Part shown: positions 6,337 to 19,052 of the stretch, in pieces
How the letters are laid out: every line of letters begins with the position of its first letter
How positions within the stretch are numbered: position 1 is the first letter of the stretch
Virus record (IMG/VR): IMGVR_UViG_3300034061_002597
Span: 1-25,183 of that record
DNA from: a virus
Length of the DNA stretch: 25,183 nucleotides
Direction: 5' to 3' (one strand)
Notes under the pieces: generated by a model
What the model saw: only the letters and a program-made list of their open reading frames with translations
Told to the model about the DNA's origin: nothing
The model's database searches: none
Made by a program: the position numbers and the translations under genes

Positions 6337-6346
6337 GGCAAGCCAG

Positions 6347-6363
6347 AGGGGTCTATTGCCCCT
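6347..6363. terminator. Short hairpin after the lysis genes
   Basis: AGGGG at 6347-6351 pairs with CCCCT at 6359-6363 around a 7-base loop, 10 bases after the last lysis-region stop. There is no T-run, so it is at best a weak or Rho-assisted terminator. Confidence 0.3.
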
Positions 6364-6461
6364 TGACGGAGGCGACCCTAATGGCAAACTGAACTCAGTC
6401 GGGTAGGGGTACGCTCGTTCATGGCGGGCCTCGATGACCTGAGGGCGTATCATATGTAGCG

Positions 6462-6489
6462 CCCTGACCCCTTGAGTGGGGTCACAGGG
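6462..6489. terminator. Stem-loop, probable terminator or processing site
   Basis: TGACCCC at 6465-6471 pairs perfectly with GGGGTCA at 6478-6484 around a 6-base loop. The stem is extended by CCC/GGG across a 2-base bulge. No clean T-tract follows. It could end the upstream operon or protect the start of the downstream transcript. Confidence 0.45.
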
Positions 6490-6556
6490 TATTTGCGGAA
6501 AGGTGCTTGACGAATGTGGAACAGTCCGCCAAGGTCATTGACGCACCACCAAACAC

Positions 6557-6694
6557 ATGAAAGCCCTCGCTACCCTGTTCGCCATCGCCGCCATCGGCTG
6601 GCTCGCCATCGTGACCTTCTGCGGTCCCGAACTCTACCGCGTCATCAACGGCCCGGAGCCGGTGAAGTCCAAGGCCGTCCGCAGCCACCGCTAA
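6557..6694 (+). CDS. Tiny single-TM protein
   Basis: A 45-residue frame starts at ATG 6557 and stops at 6692-6694. The first 22 residues are hydrophobic (MKALATLFAIAAIGWLAIVT), with one Lys at position 2, so it is either a signal peptide or a single-pass anchor. The rest is short and basic at the end (KSKAVRSHR). Codon bias matches neighbouring genes. It is the first gene after the non-coding gap and has an A/C-rich leader without Shine-Dalgarno. Function unknown. Confidence 0.6.
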   Translation: MKALATLFAIAAIGWLAIVTFCGPELYRVINGPEPVKSKAVRSHR

Positions 6695-15347: not shown

Positions 15348-16646
15348 ATGATCCCGCCGAATAACGTCGCAGCGGAACGCCACCTCCTCGGCGTCCTGCT
15401 ACGCGAAGCCCTCCCCCTTCCACCTGAACTGAAGCCATCCGACTTCTTCGAGCCCGTCCACGTTGACATTTATTCGGCCGCCCTGTCCCTAAGCGACGCC
15501 GGCATCCGGGCAGACGAGCATACCGTAAGCCAGAAGCTGCGCGAGATGAAGTCTAAGGTGGAGGCCGCAACCGTCTCGCTCCTAGTCAGTGACTCAGGCT
15601 TCGGCGAGTATCGACCAGAGCACGTCGACCTGATCACAAGCGCCGCCCTGCTACGTCAGGCAGCAGTCGCCGTTGCGAACGCCACCGACCCAGACACCCT
15701 CCTTGAACATTATGCCCGCTTATCCGAAGAGCGCAAGGGGCGTAAGGTCAAGGTCGGGCCTGCCCGCATGGACTTCGACGCCCTTATGTCTTTTAAGCGC
15801 AAGGAAGACCCGACTTGCGTCCTTGGTTCTAACCGATGGCTCTGCAAGGGTGGCTCCATGCTCATCGTCGGCCAGTCCGGCACGGGCAAGTCGTCCCTGA
15901 TGATGCAGGCCGCCGTGCTTTGGTGCATGGGCCGTGACTTCTTCGGCATCAAGCCTACTAAGCCTCTTCGTGCTGTAGTGCTTCAGGCCGAGAACGACGC
16001 GGGCGACATCTCCGAAGCATTGCAGGATGTAATTGCCGGGGCATACCTAGACAGCGACGAGAAGGCCACCCTACGCGATCACCTCGCCATCTTCCGTGAC
16101 ACCGTTTCCACAGGAACGACCTTTACCGCCGCCCTTCGTCAGCTCATCATCGACCAACGCGCCGACATCGTCTTCATCGACCCGTTGCTTTCCTTTGCGG
16201 GCATCGACGTCTCCGATCAGGAGCAGGCGTCCAAGTTCCTGCGCCATGACCTTGCGCCCATCCTCCTCGAGACAGGCGCCGTCCTCGTGGCCATGCACCA
16301 CACCGGGAAGCCCAAGGCCGCCTCCGACAAGGAAGGCCACACGGTCGCCGACCTAGCCTACGCGGGCCTCGGCTCCTCCGAGTTCACCAACTGGTTCCGC
16401 GAGGTCGCCGTCCTCTTCCGCTGCCAGGGCGAAGAGCCGATCTACAAGTTCGGCCTGACCAAGCGCCGCGGCCGTGCCGGTCTCAAGGACTCAAACGGTC
16501 AGTTCAAGCCCGAGATTAACATTCGCCATTCGGCCGACAAAGAGGTCATCCGATGGGAATATGCCCATACCCCAGCCGAGGTGTCCCAGCAGGATGCCGT
16601 TTCCAGCCCCGCCAAGGGGTCTTCTGGTCAGTCTAGCCCCTATTGA
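15348..16646 (+). CDS. Replicative helicase with DnaB-N-like domain and RecA-like ATPase
   Basis: The 432-residue protein begins with PPNNVAAERHLLGVLLRE, typical of the DnaB N-terminal domain, through about residue 110. After a linker comes a RecA-fold ATPase: GGSMLIVGQSGTGKSSLMMQ with Walker A at 175-182, VLQAENDAGD at about 211-220, Walker B ADIVFIDPL with Asp278, and LVAMHHTGKPK. The core resembles RepA/AAA_25-type helicases more than classical DnaB. It probably unwinds DNA at the phage origin, with a loading function in the N-terminal part. It is followed by a non-coding region with repeats, a candidate origin. The last codons overlap a hairpin. Confidence 0.85.
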   Translation: MIPPNNVAAERHLLGVLLREALPLPPELKPSDFFEPVHVDIYSAALSLSDAGIRADEHTVSQKLREMKSKVEAATVSLLVSDSGFGEYRPEHVDLITSAALLRQAAVAVANATDPDTLLEHYARLSEERKGRKVKVGPARMDFDALMSFKRKEDPTCVLGSNRWLCKGGSMLIVGQSGTGKSSLMMQAAVLWCMGRDFFGIKPTKPLRAVVLQAENDAGDISEALQDVIAGAYLDSDEKATLRDHLAIFRDTVSTGTTFTAALRQLIIDQRADIVFIDPLLSFAGIDVSDQEQASKFLRHDLAPILLETGAVLVAMHHTGKPKAASDKEGHTVADLAYAGLGSSEFTNWFREVAVLFRCQGEEPIYKFGLTKRRGRAGLKDSNGQFKPEINIRHSADKEVIRWEYAHTPAEVSQQDAVSSPAKGSSGQSSPY

Positions 16647-16657
16647 GGGGTAAGACC
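16618..16657. terminator. Nested stem-loop at the end of the helicase gene
   Basis: An inner stem CCCCT (16637-16641) / AGGGG (16646-16650) has a 4-base loop that contains part of the stop codon. An outer GGTCTT (16618-16623) / AAGACC (16652-16657) brackets it. A further AGGGG at 16615-16619 could pair with the same CCCCT instead. No T-run follows, so a classical intrinsic terminator is doubtful. Confidence 0.4.
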
Positions 16658-16725
16658 GCCCTAAACAATCAAAACGCCTTACAAGCCAAGCCAGACCCAT
16701 GAACCCACCCACCCGACCAGACAAG

Positions 16726-16756
16726 TTGCAAGACAACTCGCAAGACAACATAGTAT
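16726..16756 (+). promoter_or_regulatory. Weak sigma70-like promoter candidate
   Basis: TTGCAA at 16726-16731 and TAGTAT at 16751-16756 are separated by 19 bp, slightly long for a sigma70 promoter. The -10-like box overlaps the left arm of the palindrome that follows, which would suit repression. The host sigma factors are unknown, so this is tentative. Confidence 0.25.
16728..16749. repeat. Tandem direct repeat GCAAGACAAC
   Basis: GCAAGACAAC occurs at 16728-16737 and again at 16740-16749, a 12-bp period. The first copy is preceded by GTT, so GTTG...CAAC also forms a small inverted repeat. Iteron-like repeats of this kind beside a helicase gene can be initiator binding sites, but two copies are few for an origin. 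Confidence 0.6.
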
Positions 16757-16787
16757 CAGTAGGGAATATACATTCCCTACATGATAC
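16753..16787. promoter_or_regulatory. 35-bp near-perfect palindrome, candidate operator or origin element
   Basis: The arms are GTATCA (16753-16758) and TAGGGAAT (16760-16767), mirrored by ATTCCCTA (16772-16779) and TGATAC (16782-16787), with a 4-bp ATAC centre and 1- or 2-bp interruptions. All 14 paired positions match. Its size and symmetry fit a dimer- or tetramer-binding operator in front of the packaging/late gene run, or part of an origin. As RNA it would also form a strong hairpin, but no T-tract follows closely. Confidence 0.6.
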
Positions 16788-16856
16788 ACGCAGATGCCTT
16801 TGCGTCGCTTACGCTCGCTCGGCCCTGCGGTTTTTTCTGCAAGCAATTTGACCACC

Positions 16857-17219
16857 ATGAGCAATCCAAGCAGACCGAGAAAACGTAAGTTGACCGAGGC
16901 ACGGAGGAGGCACCTGATCGCGGAGAAGCAGAAGTTCGCCGAGAAATGGCTGACCGATAAGCCAGGTATGCTCAGGCGCTGCGCAGCTGGAGGCGAGGCC
17001 ACCGCAGACAAGGCTAAGGACAGAAGGCAAACGCTTGTGGATTGGCTATCCACTATGCCTCCTCGCATGACTAAGGCTCACCTAATCAAGGAGTTTCAGG
17101 CACGCATGGTCGCTAACAGAAACGTCAAGGCTCGTTCCCTCGTCGAGAAGATGAGGCTCTACGGAAAGATTAAGTACGACGAAGCCACCGGCCTTTGGAT
17201 TAACATGACCAAGGCATAA
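16857..17219 (+). CDS. Basic hypothetical protein
   Basis: The start is placed at ATG 16857; an upstream ATG at 16794 would add 21 residues of atypical sequence over the regulatory region. The 120-residue product is very basic (RPRKRKLTEARRRHLIAEKQ at about 6-25) and mostly helical, with MTKAHLIKEFQARMV and VEKMRLYGKIKYDEATGLW near the C-terminus. The latter resembles a winged-helix-like end. A DNA-binding role, perhaps at the adjacent palindrome, is suggested by charge and position only. Codon use is less GC-biased than the replication genes. Confidence 0.68.
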   Translation: MSNPSRPRKRKLTEARRRHLIAEKQKFAEKWLTDKPGMLRRCAAGGEATADKAKDRRQTLVDWLSTMPPRMTKAHLIKEFQARMVANRNVKARSLVEKMRLYGKIKYDEATGLWINMTKA

Positions 17220-17264
17220 CCTTTGCCACTTGCCCGCTGAGTAATATCCTTTCCACTAAACCTA

Positions 17265-17768
17265 GTGACCAAGGCAAGCATCAATGACCTCAGCGCTCCC
17301 GGCAAGGAGGCTAAGTCGTTTGACGCGTGGTTCTTCTCACAGCCTAAGAAACTCCAGGAGAAGATGAGGGAGAACGGCGTGCTGCCCTACCGCGAGATGT
17401 CGCAGTCTCGGCACGTCTTCCAAGTGGACGCCAATCATCCGGCATGGTCGACGCGTGACGGGGACAACCTGCGTAAGGAGAGAGAGGCGTTCATCAGTAG
17501 AGACCATGTCGGCGTCATGCTCAAAGGGTTCATCGATGCGCTGGCCGCGACCGACAGCTTCCCCTTCCGTCGTCACGTCGAGACGGTACGCTGGGCGTTG
17601 TCATTGCCCGGATGCCTGGACTCCCGCACGATCGGGAGGATGTACGGACGCTCCCACTTCTGGCTGCGTAGTCGGGCCAAGGAAATCCAACGCGCCGTGA
17701 ACTCTGACGCGTGCGGAATGTTTCCTCATGTGAATGCCAGACGCGACAAACATAAGCCTTTAAAATGA
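17265..17768 (+). CDS. Hypothetical protein upstream of HNH gene
   Basis: The 167-residue frame starts at GTG 17265, 45 bases after the previous stop. Features are a helical N-terminus (SFDAWFFSQPKKLQEKM), a central region with FPFRRHVETVRWALSLPG, and a C-terminal HTH-like segment (SRTIGRMYGRSHFWLRSRAK, about 120-139), which suggests nucleic acid binding. No enzymatic motif is seen. The stop overlaps the HNH start as ATGA, so the two are likely produced together, and a packaging or DNA-cleavage accessory role is possible. Confidence 0.68.
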   Translation: MTKASINDLSAPGKEAKSFDAWFFSQPKKLQEKMRENGVLPYREMSQSRHVFQVDANHPAWSTRDGDNLRKEREAFISRDHVGVMLKGFIDALAATDSFPFRRHVETVRWALSLPGCLDSRTIGRMYGRSHFWLRSRAKEIQRAVNSDACGMFPHVNARRDKHKPLK

Positions 17769-18367
17769 AACAAAGAGTATCTCCAGATAAGCGCTCTAAA
17801 GGGCTTCAATACTATCACGACAACGCTGATAAGTTACGTCCATTGGCCGCTGCTAGGGCCAAGGCTTACTACCACAAGAATAAGGCTAAGAAGCTAGGGC
17901 AAAACGCTTCATGGAGAGATAGGAACAAGGAAGCCCATGAATCTATGAAGAAAGCATGGAACAAGCGCCGTTTCTTTTACAACAAAGCCATGTTGCTTAA
18001 GGCGCAAAAGCGAGGCGCAGTCTGCTTCGAGACGACTCAGCAACTGGCCCGAGGCTTGATGTTCCAGTGGATTAAGCAGCGCGGTCGATGTGCCCTTACT
18101 GGCATCAAGCTAGATCGTACTGCCAACGCTGACCACATCCTGCCAGCGTGTAAGGGTGGAACGGACAACAGTAATAACTTTCAATGGCTGACGCCGGAGG
18201 CCAATCACTTCAAAGGATCGCTTACTGTGGAGGAATTGGCACATATGTGCCGCCTAGTGCTGGGAAACCTTGAAAAAAGGAATCTCTTTGACCCCCGCCC
18301 CCTTCACGCGTGGCCCGACACCACGGAGGTTTTTCGTGGGGTCACCGTGCGAAAACAGGCCGTTTAA
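17765..18367 (+). CDS. HNH endonuclease adjacent to the terminase genes
   Basis: The 200-residue protein has a basic N-terminal part (about 1-85) made of KAYYHKNKAKKLG- and KKAWNKRRFFYNK-like blocks. An HNH nuclease domain follows: RGRCALTGIKLD at about 106-117, ADHILPACKGGTDNSNNFQW at about 122-141 with Asp123-His124 and Asn138, and PEANHFKGSL with His148. A second CxxC pair is absent. HNH proteins encoded beside terminases are needed for packaging in several phages (HK97 gp74 type), but free-standing homing HNH genes look similar. Its lower GC and different codon use leave a recent insertion possible. Confidence 0.83.
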   Translation: MKQRVSPDKRSKGLQYYHDNADKLRPLAAARAKAYYHKNKAKKLGQNASWRDRNKEAHESMKKAWNKRRFFYNKAMLLKAQKRGAVCFETTQQLARGLMFQWIKQRGRCALTGIKLDRTANADHILPACKGGTDNSNNFQWLTPEANHFKGSLTVEELAHMCRLVLGNLEKRNLFDPRPLHAWPDTTEVFRGVTVRKQAV

Positions 18368-18373
18368 CAAACC

Positions 18374-18928
18374 ATGGCTCTAACCAACTCAGAACTGGGT
18401 TTGGCGCTCGGCGTCACGGCGCAACGCATCTCGGTCCTTCGACGCGAAGGTATGCCGACGGACTCCATCGACGCGGCTCGGGCGTGGCGGGAAGCCCGGG
18501 CGAACGTGCAACGTGCCGCGGCACCGAAGGCCGCACCGGCGCAGCTCGACGACGGCTCCTTGGCTGACACGATCGGCGAACATCGGACCTTGGTCAGTCG
18601 GGCCCGCGGAGTCTGGCAGGCCGCGATGGAAGGGGGCGACCCGAACCAGGGGAAGTACCAGTCGAGTTATAACGCCTCGCTCAAAACGCTGGTGGCCCTC
18701 GAGGAAGAGCAGGAGCGTCGCCTCATCCTCACGAAGGACTTCATCTCGGCGAAGGAAGCGACCGAAGCCATGCGCGACATGACCGCCGGCATCGTCAACC
18801 GACTCGACAAACTCGCCCTCGATGTGGCAGAAGGATGTAACCCCGAAAACCCGGCGAAGGCGGTGAAAGTTCTCGAGGCTTGGGTGCGCCGCGTGAAGGC
18901 AGATTTATCTACCCATGACGAAGCGTAA
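18374..18928 (+). CDS. Terminase small subunit
   Basis: The 184-residue protein begins with an HTH-like segment (NSELGLALGVTAQRISVLRR, about 5-24), as in DNA-recognition domains of terminase small subunits. A charged helical middle follows (about 60-140), then a C-terminal helix (AKAVKVLEAWVRRVKADLST) likely for oligomerisation or binding of the large subunit. Position directly before a GpA-type large subunit is the main support. It should bind the packaging start site and load the large subunit. Its end overlaps a tiny basic gene by 14 bases. Confidence 0.78.
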   Translation: MALTNSELGLALGVTAQRISVLRREGMPTDSIDAARAWREARANVQRAAAPKAAPAQLDDGSLADTIGEHRTLVSRARGVWQAAMEGGDPNQGKYQSSYNASLKTLVALEEEQERRLILTKDFISAKEATEAMRDMTAGIVNRLDKLALDVAEGCNPENPAKAVKVLEAWVRRVKADLSTHDEA

Positions 18929-19052
18929 GCCCAAGTCACGCCGTAAGCCGATGCCGAAGCCTTCGCGTCCGTTCAAGCGCAAGCCGAAGAAGTGGTCGGA
19001 GTTGTCTGACGAGCTGTATCGTCTGCTCAAGGAGGCAGGGCTGTATGAATAA
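18915..19052 (+). CDS. Tiny basic protein between the terminase genes
   Basis: This 45-residue frame from ATG 18915 to TAA 19050-19052 overlaps both the small-subunit stop and the large-subunit start. The first 27 residues are almost only Lys, Arg, Pro and Ser (KRKPKSRRKPMPKPSRPFKR). The rest is a short amphipathic helix (WSELSDELYRLLKEAGLYE). Such a basic tail could bind DNA, and the helix could dock on the terminase. It may instead be a translational coupler carrying the AAGGAGG site for the large subunit. Confidence 0.6.
   Translation: MTKRKPKSRRKPMPKPSRPFKRKPKKWSELSDELYRLLKEAGLYE
19029..19035 (+). promoter_or_regulatory. Strong Shine-Dalgarno for the terminase large subunit
   Basis: AAGGAGG ends 9 bases before the ATG at 19045. 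It is the only perfect consensus ribosome-binding site I found at a gene start in this window, where most starts have none. Confidence 0.7.

Follow-up and report, generated by a model that had tools for sequence, protein, structure and literature searches.

The window analysed here, a 25,183-base virus record of IMG/VR taken at its full length, carries at positions 16721-16829 a compact non-coding element in which two and a half direct repeats of 12 bp precede two hairpins (HP1 and HP2). The element lies in a gene-free gap of 210 bp (16647-16856) if the next gene starts at the ATG at 16857; an upstream ATG in the same frame, at 16794, is an alternative start. Immediately 5' of the gap is a gene for a DnaB-like replicative helicase, recognized by Pfam (AAA_25, 5.3e-22; DnaB-N, 1.5e-10) and by PHROGs (DnaB-like helicase, 2e-11). 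Immediately 3' is the gene for a small basic protein, followed by an ORF (17265-17768), an HNH endonuclease gene, TerS, TerL, portal and head protease. An initial annotation of this DNA had placed the site between helicase and packaging genes, which is correct, with helicase on one side and HNH, TerS and TerL on the other. Besides the helicase, our scan, which covered part of the ORFs, detected genes for an Erf-like annealing protein, exonuclease VIII, a dNMP kinase and a metallophosphoesterase; no primase or polymerase was found among the scanned genes. Coordinates of the features are collected in Table 1.

Table 1. Features at and around the element (window coordinates).
Feature	Position	Strand	Basis or remark
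DnaB-like replicative helicase gene (DnaB N-terminal domain + AAA_25)	15348-16646	+	Pfam, PHROG
12-bp repeat unit 1, ACAAGTTGCAAG	16721-16732	+	Period 12 kept in 13 of 16 clade representatives
12-bp repeat unit 2, ACAACTCGCAAG	16733-16744	+	
12-bp repeat, partial unit 3, ACAACAT	16745-16751	+	
HP1: 6 bp, unpaired A at 16781, 9 bp, loop ATAC	16753-16787	+	Energy folds, inverted-repeat search, both-side changes
HP2: CGCAG/CTGCG base, GCC/GGC, GCG/CGC, apical GC-TTAC-GC	16789-16829	+	Energy folds, covariance model R2
T-run after HP2	16831-16836	+	Present in the window's clade alone; shortened in L017
Small basic protein, predicted winged helix; candidate repeat binder	16857-17219	+	AlphaFold2 model; homologue beside element in relatives

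The window's other gene-free spot, at 6337-6560, looks like the early control region; it is 88-95% identical in three relatives (G001, G003, G005) over 200-400 bp and holds a strictly kept block, GGAAAGGTGCTTGACGAAT.

The sequence GCAAGACAAC has exactly two copies in the 25,183-bp window (16728-16737 and 16740-16749), where 0.06 would be expected by chance; two repeats at a 12-bp period, as originally described, are thus borne out. Across relatives the repeat letters vary by clade (ACAACTTGCAAG, TCAACTTCCAAC, CTCAAGGTCCGA, GTATATTTCCAG and others) while the spacing does not: the strongest self-match was at lag 12 in 13 of the 16 representatives, some of which are closely related to one another, and the pooled self-match was 0.63 at lag 12, against at most 0.31 at all other lags tested. 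No 12-bp repeats were evident in clade F, G006 or L181. Elsewhere in four genomes the repeats have few or no copies, depending on the mismatches allowed. Repeats that change together with their period kept would be expected of binding sites co-evolving with a protein.

By our search HP1 is the best inverted repeat of the window, with 15 paired bases per side, whereas 20 dinucleotide-shuffled copies yielded at most 13 pairs; the palindrome described earlier is therefore real, although it had been credited with 14 pairs. HP2, which that description had missed, starts a single base 3' of HP1. DNA and RNA energy parameters predict the same two hairpins (z about -5). The length of the hairpin loops varies between 3 and 14 nt, and there are asymmetric internal loops. 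Clades D and E have, in addition, an outer stem that encloses both hairpins, making a three-way junction.

Seven contigs (L048, L080, L066, L077, L026, L022, L036) stop at the hairpin element, 94-195 bp past the helicase stop codon and all within about 100 bp of one another. Such stops outnumber those in neighbouring stretches, and they possibly reflect assembly breaks at the hairpins or strain variation.

Relatives were collected from IMG/VR as overlapping sets of loci, using as queries the helicase (80 loci), the small basic protein (21), its clade-B homologue (60), three more small-protein homologues (6, 20 and 12) and a more distant helicase (16). The order helicase, 12-bp repeats, HP1, HP2, winged-helix gene was found in nearly all loci extending this far, several contigs ending too early for the order to be judged. 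Repeats and palindrome are thus kept in nearly all syntenic relatives with their letters changed, which is the outcome of the conservation check that the initial annotation had proposed. In nearly all relatives compared within the window's clade the gap is more conserved than the genes flanking it; L093, for example, is 65% identical in the helicase gene, 90% in the gap and 76% in the winged-helix gene. An exception in this clade is L017 (83, 72 and 62%, respectively), in which the conserved block begins near the first repeat. For clade B, where L052 served as the reference, most relatives compared share 87-97% identity in the element, and in the more distant of them the identity of the winged-helix gene drops to 67-77%; L038 is an exception, with 68%, and in the nearest relatives all values are alike.

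The stems covary. HP1 offers a simple example, in which AAT..ATT is replaced by AGT..ACT in relatives. In clade B, both-side changes were found in 7 of 21 stem pairs, amounting to 16 cells of the alignment, where shuffles gave 3.0 and slid controls none. In a wider, model-aligned set spanning several clades, 13 of the 21 pairs have both-side changes, in 46 cells (shuffles 10.6; 0 of 500 reach 46), and a single cell has a one-sided change; this wider alignment was fitted to the structure, so its counts lean towards it. Covariance models extended the comparison: R1, built from clade B, matches clade C at the same place (E 4e-7 to 1.5e-3), and R2 matches L175/L176 (E 0.002) and L177/L179 (E 0.003), neither pair having been used in its building. 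R2 was also built without the window's clade, and it matches the window's element at the right place and on the right strand with 18.6 bits (E 0.2 in 236 kb, or 6e-4 if just 700 bp are searched). By these comparative measures the structure is shown to be conserved while its sequence changes; the tie between the window's own clade and the others draws on anatomy and synteny, together with a model score that is marginal. We see here a non-coding element evolving under strong structural constraint in a widespread group of uncultured aquatic phages. Rfam had no match to it, neither at gathering score nor at E up to 5.

Loops of such varied length and asymmetric internal loops suggest that the hairpins most likely act as single strands, and the question is then whether that strand is DNA or RNA. 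Natural structured RNAs have about a tenth of their pairs as G-U. Here the G-U share of predicted pairs is 1.5% on the + strand and 4.5% on the - strand, where shuffles of the same letters give about 13%; had a + strand RNA been under selection, G-U would be expected to be tolerated more on the + than on the - strand. This near absence favours DNA without deciding the matter. RNA is possible because clade D has three one-sided G-U cells and because the apical loop is frequently of the form C(UNAC)G, a GNRA-like RNA tetraloop of a kind also found in phage boxB RNA.

We therefore weighed a structured RNA spanning the early-to-late boundary, either an antiterminator acting in cis on RNA polymerase, like HK022 put, or a leader bound by the winged-helix protein and controlling that protein's own gene and the late genes. 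Two bulged stem-loops one base apart, with asymmetric internal loops and the three-way junctions of clades D and E, would suit such an RNA, as would the position of the element close 5' of the next gene's start codon. The scarcity of G-U pairs, with the + strand below the - strand, speaks against it, as do the lack of an Rfam match and the absence of boxA at the element, and the 12-bp repeats would have no clear role. The boxA result is that such sites occur at chance level, with none at the element even with up to one mismatch, so that the layout of lambda nut is not found here. On balance we think an RNA somewhat unlikely, while giving it serious weight.

Sequestration of a ribosome-binding site by the hairpins is probably not the function, most genes of this phage being without a Shine-Dalgarno sequence. 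The start codons in the window are mostly preceded by an A/C-rich leader instead. A C-rich tract for Rho loading was likewise set aside, as the tract does not stand out: 850 of 25,105 windows match or surpass its excess of C over G.

Our preferred reading is that the element serves the phage as its origin of replication, or as the core of it to which the initiator binds, an interpretation to which we assign a little less than an even chance. First, the repeats are clade-specific, hold a constant 12-bp period and have few or no copies elsewhere in four genomes. Second, the stems covary with almost no G-U, and the gap exceeds its flanking genes in conservation in most close relatives. Third, the element is flanked by the DnaB-like helicase gene and the predicted winged-helix gene. 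In the sequence of events that we envisage, the winged-helix protein encoded just 3' would bind the 12-bp repeats as double-stranded DNA; the adjacent DNA would then open, and the exposed single strand may fold into HP1 and HP2, as DNA energy parameters predict; and the hairpins would mark the site at which the DnaB-like helicase, encoded immediately 5', assembles with the host primase. The host enzyme is invoked because no phage primase was seen among the genes scanned.

The candidate initiator was described at the outset as very basic and as a possible binder of the site. The first point holds, and the second gains support from the fact that a predicted winged helix adjoins the element throughout. 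The assignment of this fold is a prediction, made from an AlphaFold2 model (mean pLDDT 88, pTM 0.64) and our reading of its secondary structure. Fold searches returned weak, generic winged-helix matches and uncharacterised phage proteins, and no convincing family was found in Pfam, PHROGs or PDB sequences.

Base composition does not point to an origin at this place. GC skew and GC3 skew are negative through the genome with no sign change at the element, so the skew check that had been suggested does not locate an origin here, and DnaA boxes are at chance level, with none at the element. Over the stretch from the element to TerS, GC skew does drop to about zero. For GC3 skew, the genes that separate the element from TerL (window 16857-19000) have values near zero, compared with about -0.3 elsewhere.

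The initial annotation had offered an origin and a late-gene switch as a pair. The origin stays the best reading of the two. A late-gene switch keeps some probability, but in the form of a dimer-type operator it is unlikely, given loops of 3 to 14 nt, asymmetric internal loops and no visible promoter. A weak -35/-10 pair reported over the left arm of the palindrome falls short of the threshold of our scan, and the region has no more promoter-like sites than chance would give; a sigma-70 promoter over the palindrome is thus not supported. More generally, the element could be a double-stranded operator and late-promoter region in which the winged-helix protein, bound to the 12-bp repeats, controls its own operon, the hairpins being a side product. 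Although the winged-helix gene does sit beside the repeats and the boundary between early and late genes is an apt position, double-stranded binding would leave covarying stems with asymmetric internal loops unexplained, and the promoter-like sites are no more frequent than chance. We regard an operator of this kind as improbable.

A possible objection is that the hairpins simply close the early operon as an intrinsic terminator, formed by HP2 and the six T that follow it in the window; both hairpins are indeed stable. The T-run is, however, absent from every other clade and shorter in L017, and a terminator scan did not call this site. Its restriction to one clade leads us to reject termination as the general function, and we find it quite improbable that the window's element is a terminator.

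A palindrome with direct repeats 5' of terminase genes is also a cos-like layout, which raises the idea of a packaging site. In four full-length relatives (28.9-29.6 kb) the 11 bases TGGCCCGACAC stand at both the start and the end of the sequence, which reveals the genome ends and an overhang of 11 nt, and many further contigs also end at this motif. The sole copy of TGGCCCGACAC in the window is at 18311-18321, about 1.5 kb from the element. The genome ends thus lie at that motif, and we reject the element as cos, a role whose probability we consider negligible.

If the element is an origin, it would provide a replication start and an initiator candidate for a phage group that has no isolates; if it is an RNA, it would represent a novel mode of transcriptional or translational control in phages. 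Isolated phages in the collection had no DNA-level match to the window and no match to the helicase protein, and a search for the host with the helicase against GTDB genomes found nothing. Among the isolates listed, Verrucomicrobia phage P8625 gives the TerL match with the best E-value, which hints weakly at a verrucomicrobial host. The parts, namely iterons, hairpins, helicase and winged helix, are of known kinds, and it is their combination that appears new. Whether this amounts to a new class we rather doubt; if so, it would be a class of origin uniting 12-bp iterons for a winged-helix initiator with a hairpin pair as one unit, used with a DnaB-like helicase and no phage primase, or, for an RNA, a class of two-hairpin antiterminators or leaders.

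Several known systems invite comparison. Iteron origins occur in phages and plasmids, as with lambda O and RSF1010. The element resembles them in having several short direct repeats of constant period at one place, next to the gene of a DNA-binding protein of winged-helix type and with a helicase gene nearby; it differs in having two to three 12-bp units, no primase gene found and an initiator that is a candidate. In the Verrucomicrobia phage P8625 (L154), a cluster of TATCGGC repeats at 32785-32894 and 1-22, possibly an origin and not annotated as such in the record, likewise lies directly 3' of the last primase/helicase gene and is followed by a small gene, but the repeat is another one, its spacing is irregular and no winged-helix homologue was found.

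HK022 put RNA, which brings about antitermination with no dedicated protein, consists of two adjacent bulged stem-loops of about 70-80 nt, downstream of early promoters (PMC9378689). Our element likewise has two adjacent bulged stem-loops, together about 70 nt, a likeness of layout (PMC9378689). Where put is found in two copies downstream of early promoters, however, the window has one significant copy, located after the replication genes at the early-late boundary, with 12-bp repeats beside it and stems almost free of G-U (PMC9378689).

The origin of pRN1 is one stem-loop of roughly 100 nt, and the replication protein is a primase/SF3 helicase (PMC4234260). There, as here, a stem-loop lies no more than about 100-160 bp 3' of the replicative helicase gene, its structure kept while its sequence varies (PMC4234260). 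The element departs from pRN1 in its two hairpins, its 12-bp repeats and its helicase, which in place of a primase/SF3 protein is DnaB-like, with DnaB-N and AAA_25 domains (PMC4234260).
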